Below, piece by piece: positions 21,167-33,149 of a DNA stretch of 64,000 nucleotides (its first letter is position 1; each line of letters opens with the position of its first letter). A program made the translations under genes and the position numbers. The notes beneath the pieces are model-generated. The model searched no databases. It had not been told where the DNA came from and saw only the letters and a program-made list of their open reading frames with translations. The stretch comes from Auricularia sp. M13. Its lineage: Eukaryota > Basidiomycota > Agaricomycetes > Auriculariales > Auriculariaceae. The DNA is taken from the NCBI GenBank assembly GCA_037042915.1, contig CM073194.1, positions 1,426,001-1,490,000 on the forward strand, read 5' to 3'.

Positions 21167-22424
21167 TCACTCGGTGTATGACGGCGTGTCTGCAATCAAC
21201 AGCGACGTCCACGACGACGAGTACCTTTCGCCCTTGACGTCCGCCGAGCGAACGAAAGAGTTGAGCTCCTCAAGCTCGCTTCCCGTGAGCTTGACCTTGG
21301 ATGCGCCGAGATTCTCCTCGAGGTTGGCGATCTTAGTCGTGCTGCAAAGTATCAGATCAACTCTCATAAATGACGATCAACAACTCGAAAGCAGCGACGC
21401 ACCCAGGAATGGGGATGATCTCGGGGCCCTGAGCAAGCAACCACGCGAGTGCGAGCTGCCCAGGCGTCGCGTTGTGCTTCTTCGCAATCTGGGTGATCTT
21501 GTCGACGAGCTCGAGGTTCTTGTGGAAATTCTCCGGCGAGTAGCGCGGGTCGGTCCTGCGGAAGTCGTCCTCGTCGAAGTCGTCCGCACTTTTGATGCGG
21601 CCGCTGAGAATACCGCGTCCGAGCGGCGAGTACGCAATGAGCGAGACTCCTAGCTCGCGGCACGCCTGGAGTACGCCGACGTCGGGACGCTCGATGTCGA
21701 GCGCGAACGGCGAGTACTCCATCTGCAGCGCGGCGACAGGGTGCACCGCGCACGCGCGACGGAGAGTCTGAGCGGAGGCCTCGGAGAGGCCGATGTGGCG
21801 GATCTTGCCCTCGTTCTTGAGTTGGACGAGCGCCTTCATGGTGATCTCGATCGGCGTGTTCTGGTCGATGCGATGGACATAGAACAAATCGATGTGGTCC
21901 ACGCCAAGTCGGGCGAGCGCCTTGTTCCCGGACTCGATGACACTGTTGACACGGGGAAGCGGTTAATTCTTGCCTCTTCGAGTGAGAAACGGTGCTCACT
22001 ATTCATGATCTCCCCTGACGAATCTGTTTCCTTGCGCGTCGACACCGATACCGAACTTGGTGGCAAGGAAAACCTTGTCGCGATTGCCGCGGGCCTTGAA
22101 GTAGCGGTTCAACATGTCCTCGTTTCCGCCGTAGATATTGCTGGAACGTGCGTAAGATGACGTCGCTTGTACGGATGGCAAGATACTTGATACATACCTA
22201 GTATCCCAAAACGTGCAGCCGAGCTCAAGGGCCTTGTCAAGCAACTTGAAAGCCTCATCGTCCGGCAAAGGCTTGCCATAGAACGCACTCATTCCCTATC
22301 TCGAACTATCAGCACACTGCGCATTCGAAGTCGCCGGAAAGTATGTATGCACCATGAGCCCGAATCCAATTTCGGTCACCTGTGGACCGTTCTTGCCTAG
22401 CGGACGGGTGGGGAGTGTCGACAT
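21167..22424 (-). CDS. Aldo/keto reductase
   Basis: Five exons (22424-22353, 22295-22198, 22140-22000, 21942-21403, 21341-21167; 1026 nt, 341 residues; checked). The AKR barrel is complete. The catalytic tetrad is visible as Asp and Tyr in FWDTSNIYGG, Lys in VFLATKFG and His in LFYVHRID. The NADPH-binding end shows PLGRGILSG and IIPIPGTTKIANLEENLGA. The closest groups are the AKR13/YakC-like reductases, which reduce aldehydes. Its upstream region carries a 48-base tandem repeat described separately. No defects are seen. Confidence 0.92.
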
Positions 22425-22447: not shown

Positions 22448-22665
22448 AGACGGAACGAAGGGCCGTGTCTGAGACGGAACGGAGGGCTCTGTCTGACTCC
22501 GTACTTATAGCTCACGCGCATGACAAAGCATGACAAAGTTCCCGGCCCATGCGGCGGAAACGCACGAGTGACAAAGCATGATAAAGCTGCCGGCAAATGG
22601 TGTGGGAACCCAGAAGTGACAAAGCATGACAAAGCCACCCTGTGGGAACGCACGACTGGCATGGT
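22448..22665. repeat. Tandem repeats in the upstream region of the aldo/keto reductase gene
   Basis: Three copies of a unit of about 48 bases, each with the core TGACAAAGCATGAYAAAG, start near 22521, 22569 and 22617. They are separated by related CCGG/GGGAACGCACGA-type sequence. Nearer the gene (22450-22500) two copies of a unit of about 28 bases (CGGAACGRAGGGC...GTCTGA) occur. All lie within 250 bases of the gene's ATG at 22424. Confidence 0.75.
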
Positions 22666-23808
22666 CCTGACACCCATTCCCTGAGTCAGTGACTGCCGAG
22701 TTAGGGGAAATGTCTTGCCTTACGAGACAATTTAGGGTAAGGCCGCACGGGTGTCCTGAACCCTCCCTTACGGCGAGCCTCATACAGCGAACAGATCCGA
22801 TGTCTTTAAGGTCTGGGAGTCGGAGTCAAAGGTGTCACGATCGAACAGTAGTGTAATTCCGAAGATGAAAGTAACTAAGACCGCAGCGGCGAAAGGAACT
22901 ATATACAATCCACTCCGCTGTAAAATCCCAAGCGGGCAAAATTCACGGAGTGGCGATGTGTACAAAACGAGCGCTGGGATTGTATTCAGCAAATGAAGAT
23001 ATGGTCATTACACTGTACTCACAGCAACGGTAAGAGCTTTAGAACGAAAGCTCAATCTCCTCGTTGGCGGAAGTGCTCGCCTTTGCGACCTCGGGGAGAC
23101 TGTCGTCGAGGAGCGCAATCCAATTGAGGTTGAAGTTGGCAATCCACTCAGTATAAACTGTCTTCTTGCCGTCCTTGTGCTTGTGATAGCGATGAACAGT
23201 CGCATCGACCAAAACGAGGTCGCCGTTCTTGAGATTCTCGGGCGCAATGAAGCTCATCTTCGATCGAGTAAGCTCCAGACCTTTTGTTGCGCCGTAGATC
23301 TCCGAGAATGTCTCGGCCTACGAGGAGATGGCATTATGGATGCCAGGAACAAGTCATGTATAGCACTTACTACAGTCTGGCCAGGCCGTCGCACCATCGT
23401 CCATTTGGAGAAGCGCAAATCGTCGTAATACACAGTAGCTACGGCAGTGCACAGATTTAGCGACACAGCAGACTATTAGTAGTAATTGTTACTCACATTC
23501 ACAATCTTTCGTAAAACGCTTGATAATCTTGTTTGCTACTACAGTAGACTTCCTCATAATTCATGACCTCATAATTCATAAATCTCATATTTCATCGAGT
23601 TTGGGTGTTCCCCGACATGGGCGGCTGGTTATTGCTTCCGAAATTCATAATTCATAATTCATCAGCTAATATGACGTTTATGAATACCAATATACATCCG
23701 GGACCACGTTTGAGCACAGCCAAGCGGCCCTGGGAACGTGGTGGAAGGTTTCCATATATAAGCGGTGCCCTTCCCAGGCCAATTCAGTCTGATTTTCCTC
23801 TCCCCAAG

Positions 23809-26800
23809 ATGCCTAAGGTGGACAAAACACCTGCTTCTTCCTCCGCGTCCGCGCCTGCAGCCAAACTTTCGGACAAGCGGCGCAAGCCCCGTCCGGCACC
23901 TGGTCCTTCCTGCCCGCGAAAGCGGAAGGAAGTCGAGACCACATCAGATACGCTTGCAACGGGCAAGAATCTGACACTTGGGCAATGGATCGAGATCCTA
24001 GACTTTGTTGAAGCCCACTCAGCAATGACTCAGAAGCAGATTGAGGCCCACTTCCGTGCGAAGGGCTACAAGCTCACTCAGTCCATGCTGTCCAAGAAAC
24101 TGAAGGACAAGGAAGCTCTTCGGGCTCGTGCACTGACAACTCCCAATGCCCTTGATACCAAGAGGCCACGGGTTGTCACTAGCCCTGAAGTGGAGCGTGC
24201 CTTGGTCCTTTGGTTTCAGGGAATGGAAGCACGTGGGGAGATTGTCAACGGTGGAATGCTTGTGGAAAAGCGTGCCCGCTTCGAGAAGCTGTTCGACATC
24301 CCGAAAGAGCAGCAGCTAACCGGTGACGGCTGGGTCAAATCATTCAAAAAAGCGTTTGTTTTGCATTCCCAGGCTGTTCCATTTGAGTCTGATTTTTATC
24401 TGTAGGTATGGCATCAAGGAGCACCGGCGTCATGGCGAGGCTGGCTCTGTTGATACCTCATCTGCGTCGACTGAACGGGAGCGCCTACGACCAATGATTG
24501 CCAAGTACAAGCCAGAAGATGTCTTCAATGGGGACGAGGTCGCGCTGTTTGCCTACGCTCCGCCCGATCGCGGCCTCGCAACAAAGGCTATGAGTGGCAA
24601 GAAGGCTCAGAAATTTCGCATCACTTTGTTCTTTGTGTGCAACTCAACGGGCACGGAGAAGGAGCCTTTGATGTACATTGGCAAGTCCCAACGACCACGA
24701 TGCTTCAAGAATATCAGTGCAGAAAAGAAGAAGAAGTTCTACTACCGATGGAACAAGAAGGCATGGATGAATTCCAGCCTGTTTGAGGAGTGCGTTGTCA
24801 CGGTGACTGCTATATCACTCTCCGAGACGACGCCCGAGGGGAAGGGATGAGTGGGGAGAGGGAGGCGCGGATAAGCGGTATGATAGACCAGACCAAACCT
24901 AAGGTACAAGAGGGGCGACGGCCCAGATATATATACTACGGAAGCAAGGCCGAGGGGCCCCGCGGACCAATTGCGCCACCGACCGGTTGTCACGCGGGCG
25001 CCACAGATCAGGCCGAAAGAGACCGCCGGGGCGTCGTCGGCGAGACAGGAAACCCGGGATAAATAGAGCCCAACCAAACCAGAAACATCCCGTCATATTA
25101 CCCTTCTCCTGGGAAGAGACCGAGGTGCTCGCCGAGCGGAGAGACCGCTTGGACGCGCCGACGAAAGGGCCGCGGGGCCGGGCGCAAGGAGTTTGGGCGC
25201 CCGGACGAGGTGCGAGGGCCACGGGACGGCGAAATGAAACAGCGGGGGAGGAGGGACCCGACGAAGACCGCAACATAACCCCCCTTCTAGCCGTCCAGTG
25301 GCCGAGGGGGGAATGGCCAGGGGAGGTGCGGGTTAGATCGGGCGTGGGGAGACGGACCATAGCGTGACCGGGCCGAGCTCCATCCGCCGCGGGATCAAAC
25401 TCTAAGCGTCAGATGCCGCGAAAGGCTCGGCTGTCGCCGTACACGAACCGCGGTACTTCTCGCTCTTCGCCTCCCCGCTTCCCGTCACCGTCCGATATCC
25501 TATGACGCCCACCGCCGCCGACGGACTGACTGCGAAGCCTCTCGGCGAACTTCGGGACCTCAGGGAGCGGGTGTTCACGCTGCATGCCTCCATCCAGCGC
25601 CAACTGAACTTCGGGCACTACGCCGCGGACGCGGAGGAGGAGAAGGCGCGGACGGTGCTTGCGTCTGCGGGCCAGCGGTTGGAGGCCATTGACGCCGAGG
25701 TGCGCCGACGCAACGCCGCGACCCGCAATCTGGAGACGGCGGCGTCTCTCCTCGGCATGACAGCAGCCTCGCTCCCCGTAGTGCCGAAGGTGGAAGGGGT
25801 TCGCCGCACGGGAACGACCTCCTCGACCACGAAGGGCAAGGGCCCATCGGGAGCGGTCGCGTCTGGGTCGAAGCGGCCTTCGGACGTCGGCGCGCGAGGG
25901 ACCGGCGACGAGGAGAAGGACGCGGTCGGGCCTCCTTTTAACACGGTACGTCTTGGTCAAAGGTCCTCTTGCTCCGGGGTGTATCCTGCGCTGACATCCT
26001 TCGTCCGGGTCCAGCCTTGTGAGCAGTGCGAGCGCTCCGGCCAGCCGTGTTTTCGACAAGTGTCCGGGTCGGCGACTGCCTGTGCTCGTTGCCACCGGAC
26101 CCGCGTGGGGTGTTCTCACAGTGTCGGCCGGTCGGGCACATCGCGCAAGAGGGCGCGACAGGACGCTGACGTGGACGGCGACGACGGGGACGATCCGGAC
26201 CAGGACGACGTGGTGGACACCGTCGGCGCGTCCGTGGCGCGGTCGCGCACACGCCGAAGGCTTCGGTCGCCGGGGACAGCCACCATGGCCGACCTCGAGG
26301 TCCTGGGCGACCGCATCGTCCAGGGGTTCCAGCTGTCCGTCTCGGTGTTGAGGCGCGACCTTCGCAAGTGGACGCAAGAGCTCGTCGATGACCGGCGTGC
26401 CCATAAGACGGTGCGCCTCGTGTCGCCGGGCGGGGAGCGGCGCGATACCGACTCCAATGACGGCCGAGCGGTGGAGGACGAGGCGGGGAGGTTGCCCACC
26501 GACGCGCCGACTTCCCCTGGCGCCGCGGGCGTGGAGGCGGAGGCGCGCCGGCTGGTCCTGTCGGCGTGCTTGCTGACCCGGCGCCGACCTGGCCCTTCTT
26601 GGCGTGGTAGTGCCGGGGGATGTGCGTCCGACACCCAGCTTTGCGTTGATGGAGGCGTCTGGGTCCGGGTCCGGATTCCTGCCACGCGTCCAACGGTCCG
26701 AGGGTCGGGATGCGTCCGTGATAGGGGAGAAGTCGGTCGATGCGGGCCAACCCGTGGAGGAGTAAGACCGTGTCCGGGTACGATTTGGGTAGTGGTGTGG

Positions 26801-29800
26801 AGGCTCGTAAAATATGTAAATAGAGAGGCGGAAAGACGAGCATAAATACGGGGTATGAGAAACGACCGGGACCGTGACTGTGGAGAGCATCCGACCGAAG
26901 CAGCATCCGACCGAAGCAGCGTCCGACCGAGGTAGGATCCGATTTTGGGCACGGTCGCCGAGGGGGAGGGAACGACGGGTGGCGTCACCTGTACGCCAAT
27001 AGATATCGACAAGGAAGGGCGGTTTCAGCTTCGCAAAGCGTGCTGCTGTACAAGGCAGGGGCGACCGTCCGGAGCGTTCAAAGACGGTGGGCCGGGCCGG
27101 GGGACGCGATCCGCAGGACCAGGGCGTCGTCGGCGTACGTGGAACGATATTCGCGGACGTCCCAGACAAGGCACGCCATAAGCCGAACAACCTGGAGGGC
27201 TCGTTCCGTCGTAGGCGACGTGATGAGATGAGGGCCGAGGCGAGGTGGGAACGAGAAGACCACTAGCTCGGTGCGAGCCCGTCGGCCTCGGTCATTGCGC
27301 ACGACGGTCGGGAGTACCCAGTAACGCGAGATATCGAGCGGGAGATGTCTCGGGGCAGTGAAGCGGCCGTAGTGAGTGAAGCGGTCTAGCATCCAGAAGA
27401 ACGGTTGGGGAGGGGCCACGAGCATGGAGATGTCGAGCCGGGTGTCGTCCGGGTCCGGCGACCGGATACGAGCGCGAAGGGGGATGAGCCCCAGTGGAGG
27501 TGTGGCCGGGCGCGCGTCCTCAAGCTCGGGCGACTCGTCGGCGGCGGGAGGTGACTCGCCGGTGCTGATGGGTGATTCGCCGAACAGCTCTTGGGATCCG
27601 TCGCCAAAGTCCTCGCCGAGGTCCATGTCCGCATCCTGGTCCAGGTCCTGTGCGGCGCCTTGGTCCTCATTTGGCTCCGGTGGTTCGGCGTGGTACTCCT
27701 CCACGAGTCCGGTTCCGTCCAGGTCGGCGGCCAGTTGCCAGCTAGCGTCCTCGGGGGGGAAGCCCATCCATTGGACGAGATACTGAGGAACTCCTCGGTG
27801 TACGCGGTGGTCCAGGACTGCCGCCGGTATGTATTGAGGGTTAACTATGGTCTCGTCGTACTGGGACATTTTGTGAGCGTTCGGTCCGAACAAAGGGGCG
27901 TGTCGGGAAAAGGGGGAAAGAGGCGTCGGTCTGGCGGCCGATCCGGATTATATGGTGTATGTGTCGTAAGCGTTGATGCGTGGGGATGATGGGGGTCACG
28001 ATCCGAGGAAGATGATGTGAATGCGCCGCGCGCACCACGGGGGGAACTTCTCTCTCGGGATGCGCGGAGGGTGAGGTTCTGGAGAGAGGGGTCGGCCGTG
28101 GGAGGTTTAGAGGTTGACCGAGGGGTGGGGACGCGCAGCGGGCGCGTTCGGCGAGTAGGGCTTGTGGGGGGGTGGTCTCGCCGCGGATGACCGGGCTCTG
28201 ATGAAGAGGAGAGATCAGGAGCCGGTGATGGAATGAGCTTTCGGATTTGACGACCGTATGGGTCTGGAGGGGTCCTCGTTGGCTGAGTGCCTGACCAGAA
28301 GGCCAGTGGGCAAGGCTCGGCATCCGGAGGGTGGGTCCTGCAGGGTCCTGGTGGGCCGATGAGTGGGCGCGGCGGTCGCGACGGGTCCTCGTCGACGCGA
28401 GGGGTCTCCTAGCCGGTCCGAGGGGTCGGATTCCTTCCTGGACCGAGCAACGCCGACCGAACGGTTCGCCCGGATTGGAAGGGTGGTGAGTAAGGGGTAT
28501 GGGGATCTCGAGCGTCGGGAGGGAGGGTAGGTTTGGTCTTATGTCACGGTGACTGCTATATCACTCTCCGAGACGACGCCCGAGGGGAAGGGATGAGTGG
28601 GGAGAGGGAGGCGCGGATAAGCGGTATGATAGACCAGACCAAACCTAAGGTACAAGAGGGGCGACGGCCCAGATATATATACTACGGAAGCAAGGCCAAG
28701 GGGCCCCGCAGACCAATTGCGCCACCGACCGGTTGTCACGCGGGTGCCACAGATCAGGCCGAAAGAGACCGCCGGGGCGTCGTCGGCGAGACAGGAAACC
28801 CGGGATAAATAGAGCCCAACCAAACCAGAAACATCCCGTCATATTACCCTTCTCCTGGGAAGAGACCGAGGTACTCGCCGAGCGGAGAGACCGCTTGGAC
28901 GTGCCGACGAAAGGGCCGCGGGGCCGGGCGCAAGGAGTTTGGGCGCCCGGACGAGGTGCGAGGGCCACGGGACGGCGAAATGAAACAGCGGGGGAGGAGG
29001 GACCCGACGAAGACCGCAACATGCGTCGCACAGCGGGCTGATGCTGTCCTTGCTGACTGTGCTTCAGGTGGGTCAAGCAATTTGACCGGAAGATGCGCTT
29101 GGCAGGGCGCCACGTTCTCCTGCTCCTGGACAATTTCGCCGGTCACAGCATTGCATACGAGCCTACCAACCTCGACATTCAGTTCCTTGCACCTAACATG
29201 ACGTCCCATATCCAACCACTTGACGCGGGCATTATCAGAACGTTCAAGGCGTACTATCGGCGCGAGTTCTGCAAACGAGCACTTGATGCGGACGAGGCGG
29301 GCGACGACGACATTTGGAAGCTCAATCTCTGGGAGGCTATGAACATGGCACGCGATGCTTGGGACCAGATCTCTGTGACTACGATTCAGAACTGCCGGGC
29401 ACACACCGGAATCCTTCCCTCGACAGCCGGACCTGCCGATACCCAAGCCGCGCATGCTTCTGCGCTTCCTGACGATACCGCATGGCTATTTCTCCTTGAC
29501 TTTGTCAGTAACCACGACATGACCTTCCCAGAGGCGCAGAAGAAACTCACCGGGATCCTGGGTGACGCTGCCACCGATGCCCGCTGGCAAAAGGCTCTCG
29601 GTATCGCAAACGATGTCGAGCCTGACGACGAGGATGCGCAGATCGCCGCTCGGACATCAATACAGGCGATGCGCGCCGCTTCACAGCCTGCCGCACCTTC
29701 GCACCTCGCTGCACCCGAGCTGGCTGCTTCCGCGCATCCTCTTGTTGACACCAGCCTGGAGAACGAGCTGCAGGACCAGATCAAGAAGTTGACGAGCCGC

Positions 29801-30268
29801 AGACTCATCCGGAACCCACTCACCGTTGCCGAATTCTTGGCTCCCCAGGAGGAGCAGCAGATCGGAGAAGGCGTGCATGAACTCGTCACCGATGACGAAA
29901 TCATTGCTACTGTCAAGGCTGAGCAGGCCGCCAAAGCTGCAGGACCTGAGGGCAACACCTCAGCTGCTGACGAGGACTCGGACGACGATGATGACCCAGC
30001 AATGCACCTCCCAATAGAAACTATCATCCAGCTGTGCAACCAGCTTGAGGCAGCATGTGTGGCTCGTGGTCTGGACAATACCTCGCAGTTGCGTGCCGAG
30101 CTGCTGCAGGTCAAGCGTCAGCTTCGCCAGACACAGCTCAAGACGTCAAAACAGCTCACCATGGAGTCTTTTGTGGCCAAACCCCGGCCAAAGGACACTC
30201 AGGTAGATGCAATGGATGTAGATAGTGACCACAGTGGGCAGCCAGCAGCGCCGATTGTCCTAGATTAG
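23809..30268 (+). CDS. pogo/Tigger-like DDE transposase (709 residues, LTR fossil in its second intron)
   Basis: Exons 23809-24353, 24406-24789 and 29068-30268 sum to 2130 nt (checked). The N-terminus is basic (KLSDKRRKPRPAPGPSCPRK). A CENP-B/psq-type helix-turn-helix follows (LTLGQWIEILDFVEAHSA), then a Tc5/CENP-B second HTH (around VERALVLWFQGMEARG to SFKKAYGIKEHRRHGE). The DDE_1 catalytic core has Asp residues in VFNGDEVALFAY, LLLLDNFAGH and IQPLDAGIIRTFKAYYR. The C-terminal tail is long and Asp/Glu/Ala-rich. The second intron (donor GTGCGT at 24790, acceptor CAG at 29065-29067) contains the LTR fossil. No stop codon or frameshift is seen in the exons, so the element was recently active or still encodes a transposase. 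Confidence 0.85.
24796..25275. repeat. Left LTR of the fossil (480 bases)
   Basis: TG...CA termini and an internal TATATATA tract near 24930 that could serve as a promoter TATA. It is about 99% identical to the right LTR. Confidence 0.9.
25502..26845 (+). other. Interior open region 1 of the LTR fossil: coiled coil plus Cys cluster
   Basis: Part of the fossil. The N-terminal half is helical (GELRDLRERVFTLHASIQRQ). A double Cys cluster follows, of the form C-x2-C-x6-C ... C-x2-C-x6-C, around CEQCERSGQPC and CARCHRTRVGC, with an acidic segment after it. This arrangement resembles gag-like or Zn-cluster proteins often linked to basidiomycete retroelements; the assignment is tentative. Confidence 0.5.
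27078..27893 (-). other. Interior open region 2 of the LTR fossil: chromodomain-like
   Basis: Part of the fossil, on the opposite strand. Near its start VPQYLVQWMGFPPEDASWQ matches the chromodomain core that closes the integrase of chromovirus-type Ty3/Gypsy elements, but no integrase core precedes it. An acidic stretch and a Pro-rich C-terminal half follow. Confidence 0.5.
28542..29021. repeat. Right LTR of the fossil (480 bases)
   Basis: Same length and ends as the left LTR. A purine-rich GGGAGGGAGGG tract lies just inside it (about 28517-28530). A G-run on the opposite strand also abuts the left LTR, so the polypurine tract does not settle the orientation. Confidence 0.9.
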
Positions 30269-30521
30269 AGTAGATTGCACGTCGTCGACGGTAATGATAT
30301 CATTCGGCAATTCCCGGATCTCGGGATCAAATTACCTCCGGTTCTCAAAAGGAATATTCCTCATAATTCATAGGATTTGGACTGTCCCCAACGTTATGAA
30401 TTATGAGGAAGTCTACTGTAGCAGCGAGAGAAGACGTGGGAATGGAAGGGGCAGCCATACGTAATCAGTCAAGGTAGATCTCACGGTGGGACGGGGGTGT
30501 AGAGAAACGGGTTGTTCCTGA

Positions 30522-30529
30522 TATTTATA
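30522..30529 (-). promoter_or_regulatory. TATA box of the split host gene
   Basis: On the minus strand the sequence reads TATAAATA, about 65 bases before the ATG at 30458. This supports that ATG as the original start of the interrupted gene. Confidence 0.6.
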
Positions 30530-30544
30530 GCGAAGACAAGGACG

Positions 30545-31322
30545 GGAGATGAATCATGCTGTGACTGAGCGGCGCTACGACCAGAGGTTGGACCAGACTC
30601 GAAGAATACGGAGGAGCAGTGCACTCGAACACTGCGCTCAGATCGCAACAATGCAGGTACGTTAAGCATATTATGATGTATGCCAGAGCGTAGCGTATGC
30701 GGGCCGAAATACTGAACGGTTGCGTATGCGCAGTAGTAAGACAGACAGGATGGGGAGCTCGGACGAAAAGAAGCCAACAACGAACCAAGAAGCAGATCGC
30801 CCATAAGGAGGGAGTGGGGATTGACGAACATGAAATAGAGCGTGCGAGTCAGCGCAAAGCGCATCGTTGCTACAACGGTCATAGCAGAAAGAAGTTACCA
30901 AAAGCGGACATTAAAATTTCAAAGTCAACGTTTCGGGAAAATCCGCAGGAATGAATTGAGAGACCTGAACTAGGGTTCAGGAATGTCAAATATTCGTAAC
31001 TTACCTGAAGCCTAACTTCCAACGATCATCTTTGAACATAAAGTCTGCGAAGGAGACTGACTACCTGAAGCCGCATGGCACAGGGGCATTGGATGATCCC
31101 GAGTATTTGAGAATGGCGAAGAAGATTGCAACCGCGCAGAATACTCAGCACATACATATCCCAGGCCATATCTAACCCGCAGTACCGTTCATTGGCCAAA
31201 TGAAATAAACACCCTGAAAGGCCCCGGCGGCCGCCGGACCGGGGCGATAGCAGAATGGCGAGCAAACATGTACAAAGCAACCTGCTCGTTCACCTCCGAT
31301 TGACCCTGACTCCTCACCACCC
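30545..31322. other. No confident gene
   Basis: Divergent upstream space between the split host gene and the F-box gene. Open frames here lack coding character. Confidence 0.45.
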
Positions 31323-33149
31323 ATGGCACACAGACTGCCCATGGATTATCCTGCCTCTGGTGCGAGTGAACTTACACGCGCCCTTGAAGAATGGGCTCGG
31401 AGGGCTATCGGTGCCGTTGTCAACCGTGGTGAAATCCGGGCTGACGAACCTGGTGCTACCGTCGACAGCGCACACTATGTCAACGAGACCTTGCTGGAAT
31501 ACAAGGATGGTGTTTTGCGTCTACTGCGCAGTGCAGCTCGCCACAGCACCCAGTTGCCATCCCTCTGCTGTCTTCCCACCTGTGTTCTGGAGCAGATATG
31601 CCGATACCTCTTACCGCGCGAGCGATTGGCACTCTCTGGCGTTTCGCGGGATCTCCGCGCTCTTCTTCTCGGCATTCCCCAAGTCTGGTCGAAACTCAGA
31701 CTCACTGCGCACGGTCATTGGTCGACATCCGAACTTTCCGACTGGAGTCACTGGACTAAGGATCTTATTCGTCGCAGTAATGAGGATCCCCTCATTTTGC
31801 AGATGGACCTGTTGGCTATATATATGAACAGTCTCTCGCAGGAGCTCGCGTCCACCATGTACCGAGTTGATTCATTGACACTTTTGCTTGAGTGTCCCTG
31901 TCTAACGGTGGATCTGACGTCGCCAACTCCCGACTTTTGGCATGCTACGCTGCTAGCCATCGATGCGCCTGCTCCACGCCTTCGGCGTATTGACCTCATT
32001 TTCACCGAACCATGCCTGGATGGTGATGGCGGGCGCGACATCGCGCACAGTCCTTTACCTTTGTCATTTTCGGCTTTGTCCCAGCACGCTCCTCAGTTGC
32101 AGACATTGGTCCTTAGCGGAGTCCGACTTCTGCCTGAATCCTTGAGCACTGCATTTTTCCGCGCGGTCACCTGTTTCTCCTATTGTAGAAATAGTCCTAT
32201 TCTCACCAACGAGCTCGCTACTGTCATGGCAATGATGCCGATGCTCATTACGCTTATCCTGACTGCAAATTCCTTTGACGCTTCGAACTCCGGCCCAAAC
32301 GATGACCTCACTTCTGGGACGACCCGCACACCGACGAACCTGAGAAATTCGATGGTCTCTGGAATGGTCAACAACTTGCGGTGGTTCTGCAGTGTCAGAC
32401 CGTTCGCTAGTATTCGAAACCTCGATCTTGACGCTGTTTCCAATGCCGCAGGACTTGTCGGGGCGGCATATGTTTCGGACAGTGTTACAGGTGCTGTCGT
32501 CGCATGGGCGGGCCTTACCATCATAATCAATGGTGTCGAAACTACGATCATTCGCGCACATCGATATCTGAGTGCTTTTCCAGCGTTGCTGAGTGCATGC
32601 TCGAACTTGACATCCCTTGCACTGCACGAACTTCAATGGTTCGATGACACATGGACGACGCTACCACCATTCCCAGCACTGAGGTCTATCTTCATACAGC
32701 TGGCGACGTGCCTAGAGCATGCTTGCATGCAGAACCAATGGCCTGATGACCAGGGGATCGGCATATTCAATATTTCTCTCGGTGCCAATCAGTGGCAGCT
32801 GACAAATTTGCGGCATCTGCACGTCAGTGCACCACGCCTCAGTGGACCAACCTGCGGGTACGAGGACTGTCTGGGCAGATGCTCTCCCAGCATGAGCGTA
32901 TCTTTAGGCGACATCGTCCGCTTCGTCAGGCTCAAGTTGGCGTTTGGTGGGCCTCAGCTTGACTCGATCCGCTTCTCCGGGCTTCGCTTCGTCGACCCCG
33001 ATCTCGGCGCCGCTTGGAACGAGCTGAACGCCCTATCCAAGTCATATGAACTCGCATTGCTACCCGAGGAGGTAGCCCACATGGACCTGCCGGTTTTCTC
33101 AGGTTACACGCTCGATACTCTTTTTGTCGGACGGGACGGAGCTGAATGA
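31323..33149 (+). CDS. F-box domain protein with C-terminal leucine-rich region
   Basis: A single-exon gene of 608 residues starting MAHRLPMDYPASGASELTRA. The F-box is at about residues 78-120: LCCLPTCVLEQICRYLLPRE, then ALSGVSRDLRALLLGIPQVW, with the usual L-P, I/L-x-x-I and V-S-R-x-W-like positions. The rest contains irregular leucine-rich segments (QLQTLVLSGVRLLPESL; NLTSLALHELQWFDD; NLRHLHVSAPRLSG), as in the large Agaricomycete F-box/LRR families. Such proteins are substrate adaptors of SCF ubiquitin ligases through Skp1. The substrate is unknown. No intron or defect is seen. Confidence 0.82.
   Translation: MAHRLPMDYPASGASELTRALEEWARRAIGAVVNRGEIRADEPGATVDSAHYVNETLLEYKDGVLRLLRSAARHSTQLPSLCCLPTCVLEQICRYLLPRERLALSGVSRDLRALLLGIPQVWSKLRLTAHGHWSTSELSDWSHWTKDLIRRSNEDPLILQMDLLAIYMNSLSQELASTMYRVDSLTLLLECPCLTVDLTSPTPDFWHATLLAIDAPAPRLRRIDLIFTEPCLDGDGGRDIAHSPLPLSFSALSQHAPQLQTLVLSGVRLLPESLSTAFFRAVTCFSYCRNSPILTNELATVMAMMPMLITLILTANSFDASNSGPNDDLTSGTTRTPTNLRNSMVSGMVNNLRWFCSVRPFASIRNLDLDAVSNAAGLVGAAYVSDSVTGAVVAWAGLTIIINGVETTIIRAHRYLSAFPALLSACSNLTSLALHELQWFDDTWTTLPPFPALRSIFIQLATCLEHACMQNQWPDDQGIGIFNISLGANQWQLTNLRHLHVSAPRLSGPTCGYEDCLGRCSPSMSVSLGDIVRFVRLKLAFGGPQLDSIRFSGLRFVDPDLGAAWNELNALSKSYELALLPEEVAHMDLPVFSGYTLDTLFVGRDGAE

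Follow-up and report, generated by a model that had tools for sequence, protein, structure and literature searches.

A nest of a probable Helitron2-type unit, a pogo-like transposon and an LTR retrotransposon in the genome of Auricularia sp. M13

Introduction

Rolling-circle transposons of the Helitron2 group, described by Bao and Jurka in 2013 (PMC3627910) and represented in Fusarium oxysporum by FoHeli1 and FoHeli2 (PMC5148889), resemble the outermost layer of the locus analysed here, a nest of transposons lying in a 64,000-nucleotide stretch of the Auricularia sp. M13 genome (C2:1426001-1490000; hereafter the window). The elements of this group have a T at the 5' side, a terminal asymmetric terminal inverted repeat (ATIR) placed in a hairpin and a subterminal copy of the ATIR on the other side, whose distance from the 3' end is given as about 20-30 bp in PMC3627910 and as 20-40 bp in PMC5148889; no target duplication is seen. 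The outer unit of our locus shares these features. F. oxysporum also has a short non-autonomous derivative, FoHeliNA1, of 830 bp (PMC5148889); the unit described here measures 1.37 kb. According to the same paper, the FoHelis are about 5-11 kb long and no RPA-like (replication protein A-like) gene is reported for them, whereas the candidate autonomous partners of our unit extend over 26 and 57 kb and share a second gene far downstream of RepHel, the gene for the Helitron replicase-helicase. In this they are like HELPO1 of Pleurotus ostreatus (Castanera 2014, PMC4289320), a fungal Helitron with extra genes of unknown function downstream of RepHel, although the HELPO ends given in that paper (T[C/G] ... 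CTRR, with CTTG in HELPO2) differ from those found here.

The two inner layers also have described counterparts. Members of the pogo/Tigger branch of the Tc1/mariner transposons have CAGT-type terminal inverted repeats (TIRs), a TA target duplication, a DNA-binding part of the Tc5/CENP-B type and a DDD triad with 30-residue spacing; our middle layer has the same features and differs in nothing essential. The innermost layer, a long terminal repeat (LTR) element, carries an antisense open reading frame (ORF) with a chromodomain. The Retand LTR elements of plants (PMC11963269) likewise carry, upstream of their 3' LTR, an antisense ORF whose domain is DNA- or chromatin-related. In Retand the usual domain is TRP28 and the host is a plant, whereas here the domain is a chromodomain, no gag-pol was found and the lineage is not a plant one.

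Results

Our results suggest, with a probability of roughly 90%, that three transposons, each of a different mechanism, are nested at this locus, which lies between two ordinary genes. From the outside inwards these are a non-autonomous Helitron2-type unit, a pogo-like DNA transposon and an LTR retrotransposon (Table 1). A first-pass annotation, made from the letters of the window, had already recognised the geometry of the two inner layers, with perfect 23-bp TIRs bordered by TA on both sides and, inside them, LTRs bordered by TGCGT on both sides. We confirmed this geometry in full. The annotation had taken the outermost layer for a host gene, cut after codon 13, and here our analysis departs from it.

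The order of the nest could be read from the genome itself, which was searched as 52.1 Mb in 14 contigs. The DNA on both sides of the pogo-like transposon recurs elsewhere in the genome, and the unit that it forms was found at five loci, the window included. At three of them (C10 near 165.5 kb, C9 near 1985.8 kb and C11 near 3007.7 kb) the site of the transposon is empty, with one TA and no transposon. Because three other complete copies of the unit lack the transposon, the transposon arrived after the unit, and because the LTR element lies inside the transposon, it arrived last. The order is thus Helitron-type unit, then pogo-like transposon, then LTR element. The annotation had proposed a gene, then a DNA transposon, then a recent LTR element: the second and third steps hold, and the first layer is a Helitron-type unit, not a gene. 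In the same way, the empty site that it had predicted exists in three paralogous copies as far as the single TA and the missing transposon are concerned, but the uninterrupted host gene expected there does not.

Without its insert, the outer unit measures about 1.37 kb (22730-23541 plus 30421-30982). Similarity among its copies starts at 22729-22730 and stops at 30983-30984 in BLAST; comparison of the flanks placed the exact ends at 22730 and 30982, followed by A in every copy read. The ends of the other copies agree to within 2 bases and their flanks are unrelated. A T at the 5' side and no target duplication were found in the window, in the three other complete copies and at the ends of the large C11 and C2 elements described below. 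On the minus strand the unit starts with TCCTGAACCCTAGTTCAGG, which forms a 7-bp hairpin, and TTCCTGAACCCTAGTTCAGG at this start places a hairpin-forming 5' ATIR 0-2 bp from the 5' end, as in Helitron2. The hairpin fold (30944-30984, minus strand) had a z of -5.76, with none of 200 shuffles as good, and that of copy L002, for which the complementary strand was folded, had a z of -4.68. At the 3' end the order is AGGGTTCAGGA, a short stem and CCTTACCCTAAAT. The distance from ATIR to end, 24 nt in the window and 8 nt longer in the other copies, has the Helitron2 spacing. Note that the window copy is without 8 nt of the 3' stem present in the others, where, as in the L002 fold, the stem consists of 6 bp (CCGTGC/GCACGG).

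The fifth locus links the unit to much larger elements. On C11, the left part of the unit lies at 2251314 and the right part ends at 2308802, in the correct order and orientation and 57.5 kb apart. Between the two halves is a RepHel (C11:2297808-2303195) with an open frame of 1,796 aa, which matches the Pfam families Helitron_like_N (1.8e-27) and, in part, PIF1 (4.9e-18), as would befit an autonomous partner. The second large element, of 26.3 kb on C2, shows a hairpin end near 2014.5 kb, then a RepHel (2017950-2022869; 62% identity), then, at 2038245, a homologue of a gene that we call gene Y, whose C-terminal exon is present in the window, and finally a 3' ATIR and the end TACCCTAAAT near 2040.81 kb. 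The reading that fits the outer unit best is that it arose by internal deletion from a large Helitron2-type rolling-circle transposon with a RepHel, the deletion junction being at TCTCTCGGTG/CTAGTAGCG.

This derivation also concerns the supposed host gene. Its ATG part and its C-terminal exon derive from stretches 55 kb apart on C11, and it combines the beginning of one gene with the end of another, gene Y. Read without splicing, the ATG frame runs for 26 codons before a stop in all three empty copies, so that there is no open gene to be cut after codon 13, and the frame of gene Y is offset from it. Since the supposed host frame is the junction of two genes of a large Helitron-type element, no host coding sequence appears interrupted at the locus; what flanks the transposon is a dispersed unit with Helitron2-type ends. 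A single-copy host gene was rejected on the further copies of the flanks found in the genome, and a segmental duplication of the flanks on their fixed ends and unrelated surroundings.

Homologues of the gene Y exon are associated with RepHel. At eight of the nine loci the homologue is preceded on its strand by a RepHel, at a distance of 10.3-44.8 kb, the exception being C3:457442. Among 100,000 random points drawn on the 11 contigs entered, 1.1% had a same-strand RepHel no more than 50 kb upstream, which gives a binomial probability of 2e-15. The genome search for RepHel, in which the best 26 of 96 candidates were scored, gave 39 matches; 26 of these entered the test and 13 short fragments were left out. 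Gene Y follows 11 of the 15 matches with at least 39% identity and none of the 11 below 39%, although some genes are counted twice among the 26, being split. The exon has an open frame in the window, and among five aligned rows 30 of its 92 columns are invariant. In a profile search of the PDB its best hit, a designed TIM barrel at E 0.011, was taken as noise, and its predicted fold had a mean pLDDT (predicted local distance difference test score) of 53 and was set aside. No second Helitron2 gene like gene Y was found among the titles or abstract openings of open PubMed Central papers, an incomplete set. A RepHel match at C10:826528-845396 falls into two parts on one strand, with about 14.5 kb between them, as if a Helitron gene had been split by an insertion.

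Two copies of the unit carry inserts of their own. Beside a TA, the copy at the fifth locus has an insert of about 865 bp (L005:537-1401; C11:2251498-2252364). Compared with its reverse complement, this insert matches at 89%; it is a large fold-back element, with CAGTGGAGGACATGGACATT at its ends. The copy at C11:3007k (L003:464-1217) has an insert of about 750 bp farther along, perhaps a solo LTR of another family, whose flanking matches overlap by 5 bp.

The pogo-like transposon is 6,877 bp long, of which 2,646 bp remain once the LTR element and its duplication are taken out. With up to 3 mismatches allowed, the TIR sequence occurs in the window at the two ends of the transposon only, and each of 100 shuffles gave no match. 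Genome-wide there were 17 matches (none in the backwards control), 16 of which form eight inverted pairs by coordinates, with a sole unpaired match at C2:3063880; single rather than paired recurrence of the repeats, which the annotation had named as evidence against its reading, was therefore not what we found. The eight pairs are the window element, three on C10, and four of 175 bp on C2, C7, C8 and C13. Three relatives on C10 are 67-74% identical, and no close copy was found in the genome. Two of the C10 pairs (167095/169766 and 750233/752904) are about 2.7 kb long. In the third (C10:3556876-3565689) the TIRs are separated by 8.8 kb rather than 2.7 kb, and this relative perhaps holds an insertion of its own. 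The 175-bp pairs (C2:4689471, C7:3183484, C8:38534 and C13:71454) are a small non-autonomous derivative related to the pogo-like element.

As annotated, the transposase is pogo-like: HTH_Tnp_Tc5, a DNA-binding domain of the Tc5/CENP-B type, is joined to DDE_1, and 30 residues separate the second and third D of its DDD triad. What had been missed is that the LTR element sits in a transposase intron and leaves the coding sequence open. A short intron (GTACGT ... CAG) is found in three relatives where intron 2 lies. In the window the 5' splice site of this intron, GTGCGT (24790-24795), is intact, and the LTR element follows directly, six bases past the splice site. The three native exons give 709 codons with one terminal stop. 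Since the LTR element is in intron 2 and the exons read through, the transposase coding sequence is open. The idea that the LTR element cuts this coding sequence was rejected, because its insertion site is an intron common to the relatives.

The LTR element has TG...CA paired LTRs and a 5-bp duplication, as is characteristic of LTR retrotransposons, and its position inside the transposon, its TGCGT duplication and its LTR identity of about 99% (5 differences in 480 bp) were all correctly annotated. Its description as a fossil does not fit: in the genome, where the best 40 of 195 candidates were scored, at least 41 LTRs match at 98-100% identity, and the LTRs belong to a young family. Thirty LTR loci were read, counting the two in the window: 26 border on one and the same internal sequence, at 97-100%, and four are solo LTRs. 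A perfect 5-bp duplication was present in 8/8 pairs examined (window included) and 4/4 solo LTRs. The eight pairs differ at 1, 1, 5, 2, 2, 3, 0 and 5 positions (the last being the window; some of these counts include an edge base). With its five, the window pair is one of the most diverged of the eight, a recent insertion and not the youngest. All five of its differences are A/T in the 3' LTR against G/C in the 5' LTR, four of them at CpG. This is as expected of methyl-cytosine decay, and any age estimate would therefore be inflated.

Pfam scanning of all 16 internal ORFs with a length of 100 aa or more revealed no gag-pol domain, the sole family being Chromo. As regards a primer binding site complementary to a tRNA 3' end, by eye no TGG directly follows the 5' LTR. 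A sense ORF with a CX2CX6CX10CX2CX6C pattern was tried as a conserved gene and rejected, since indels separate the window from all 11 other copies. Its variable columns fall at codon positions 1, 2 and 3 as 11, 3 and 5 over 148 codons and as 11, 10 and 12 over 182 codons, and in the frame as read there is no sign of selection among the 12 sequences.

A genome search with the antisense chromodomain ORF gave 34 matches, 13 of which span residues 1-263 without a stop. At the DNA level we read 11 copies (window included): six keep the 263 codons, two overrun the usual stop and three are truncated. The pooled ratio of non-synonymous to synonymous substitution rates (dN/dS) among the six intact copies, whose pairs are dependent, was 0.41. 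Against the older copy L070, substitutions at codon positions 1, 2 and 3 numbered 10, 12 and 34, with fewer non-synonymous changes than expected (p = 1.9e-4); against the older copy L071 they numbered 18, 15 and 57 (p = 1.5e-7). These two older copies, which may or may not lie in LTR elements, were compared as ORF sequences. Three young pairs gave p = 0.1, 0.15 and 0.025 in the same test and are not decisive. These codon comparisons indicate that the chromodomain ORF is under purifying selection. No fungal LTR element with an antisense chromodomain ORF appeared among the titles or abstract openings of open PubMed Central papers in our incomplete survey.

Discussion

The outer layer is where the readings diverge. 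We consider it very improbable that it is a real small host gene, spread by segmental duplication, one functional copy of which was broken by the pogo insertion. The open and partly invariant C-terminal exon would suit such a gene, as would the presence of the unit at five loci, and the stops of the ATG frame were read unspliced, so that splicing in the empty copies would be compatible with it. However, the copies share both ends, with hairpin and ATIR, in unrelated flanks, which segmental duplication does not produce; RepHel elements are bounded by ends of the same kind; the unspliced ATG frame is short in every empty copy; and the two parts of the supposed gene come from distant stretches of C11. 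It is scarcely credible, in turn, that the unit is mobile by another mechanism, whether Crypton-like or as a TIR transposon with lost duplications, and that the C11 RepHel is there by coincidence. The C11 interval is indeed 57 kb long and holds other repeats, and the 3' stem of the unit is weak, but C2 independently presents the 5' hairpin end, RepHel, gene Y, 3' ATIR and the TACCCTAAAT end in the same order, and gene Y follows RepHel at eight of nine loci. Several observations nevertheless weigh against the nest as we read it. The 3' end folds no better than shuffles (z of -0.06 for L002 and 0.72 for the window), so the support for the putative Helitron2 label comes from the 5' end, the two ATIRs and RepHel, with the 3' stem of the window copy incomplete. 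The C11 RepHel covers only positions 2-159 of 223 in PIF1, and this copy may be broken. The reading of the 57.5 kb on C11 as one element, and not as two halves separated by unrelated DNA, draws on the order and orientation of the parts, on RepHel and on the similar element on C2, and RepHel would be assigned to Helitron2 by the features of the elements rather than by its place in a tree. Gene Y has neither a Pfam match nor a convincing PDB match. The empty sites are paralogous, not allelic, and a tandem group of three LTRs (C1:5884196-5888895; L044, L039 and L032), which was left out of the pair count, has unlike outer flanks.

A different question is what the last insertion did to the middle layer. 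We lean somewhat towards the view that it silenced the transposase despite its whole exons and that the nest is dead, which is compatible with the nest and concerns its consequence alone. Where introns are short, an intron of 4.3 kb with internal LTR signals is unlikely to be spliced efficiently. Against this view stand the intact exons and both intact splice sites, with the 709 codons that they yield.

Returning to the nest itself, the events were most likely as follows. A 1.37-kb non-autonomous Helitron2-type element inserted first, presumably moved in trans by RepHel. The pogo-like element then inserted at a TA inside this copy of the unit, presumably by cut and paste through a pogo transposase. 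Last and recently, a 4.2-kb LTR element of a young family entered intron 2 of the pogo transposase with a 5-bp duplication, presumably mobilised by the proteins of an autonomous relative, including an integrase acting in trans.

As a nest, the locus is ordinary, and its component parts are of known kinds. It illustrates that empty sites within one genome can be enough to establish the order of a nest, and that what passes for a credible host gene can be a chimera left by internal deletion in a Helitron-type element. Two results look less ordinary, and both are testable: the association of gene Y with a single clade of very large Helitron2-type elements, and the purifying selection on the antisense chromodomain ORF of an LTR family in which no gag-pol was detected. 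Going further, a giant (26-57 kb) Helitron2 clade of this genome might carry gene Y, conserved near the 3' end, as its own machinery, perhaps as a single-strand DNA-binding helper, and, separately, the LTR family might be sustained by a selected antisense chromodomain protein that steers insertion; taken jointly, we hold these two ideas as doubtful.

Other features of the window

The coordinates of all features are collected in Table 1. The left and right neighbours of the outer unit are an aldo/keto reductase frame and an F-box-like frame, respectively.

Table 1. Features of the nest and its surroundings, in window coordinates.
Feature	Position	Strand	Evidence or remark
Aldo/keto reductase frame	21357-21959	minus	neighbour of outer unit
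Outer unit, non-autonomous Helitron2-type (best reading)	22730-30982	minus	BLAST of copies, flank comparison, end searches, RepHel elements with like ends
3' subterminal ATIR copy AGGGTTCAGGA	22754-22764	minus	24 nt from 3' end CCTTACCCTAAAT
Gene Y C-terminal exon (annotated as host gene)	23042-23317	minus	homologues at 9 loci
TA target duplication, left	23540-23541	.	sequence and empty sites
Pogo-like DNA transposon	23542-30418	plus	TIRs, Pfam, empty sites
Left TIR, 23 bp CAGTAGACTTCCTCATAATTCAT	23542-23564	plus	motif search
Transposase exon 1 (DNA-binding part)	23809-24353	plus	Pfam HTH_Tnp_Tc5 2.9e-07; exon model
Transposase exon 2 (first D)	24406-24789	plus	Pfam DDE_1 1.6e-13; exon model
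Transposase intron 2, holds LTR element	24790-29067	plus	short intron at same site in relatives L008-L010
TGCGT target duplication, left	24791-24795	.	flank reading
LTR retrotransposon, 4,226 bp	24796-29021	plus	no gag-pol domain found
5' LTR, 480 bp	24796-25275	plus	LTR alignment
Part of sense ORF, cysteine pattern (by eye)	25502-26560	plus	frame not conserved among copies; no Pfam match
Antisense 263-aa chromodomain ORF, inside LTR element	27078-27869	minus	Pfam Chromo 1.6e-09
3' LTR, 480 bp	28542-29021	plus	5 differences from 5' LTR (98.96% identity)
TGCGT target duplication, right	29022-29026	.	flank reading
Transposase exon 3 (second and third D)	29068-30268	plus	Pfam DDE_1 6e-22; exon model
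Right TIR, 23 bp CAGTAGACTTCCTCATAATTCAT	30396-30418	minus	0 mismatches to left TIR
TA target duplication, right	30419-30420	.	sequence and empty sites
5' ATIR TCCTGAACCCT	30972-30982	minus	part of 7-bp terminal hairpin
F-box-like frame	31251-33146	plus	neighbour of outer unit; match below curated cut-off

Finally, a 48-bp tandem repeat of 2.4 copies (22521-22635) is located just beyond the left end of the Helitron unit.

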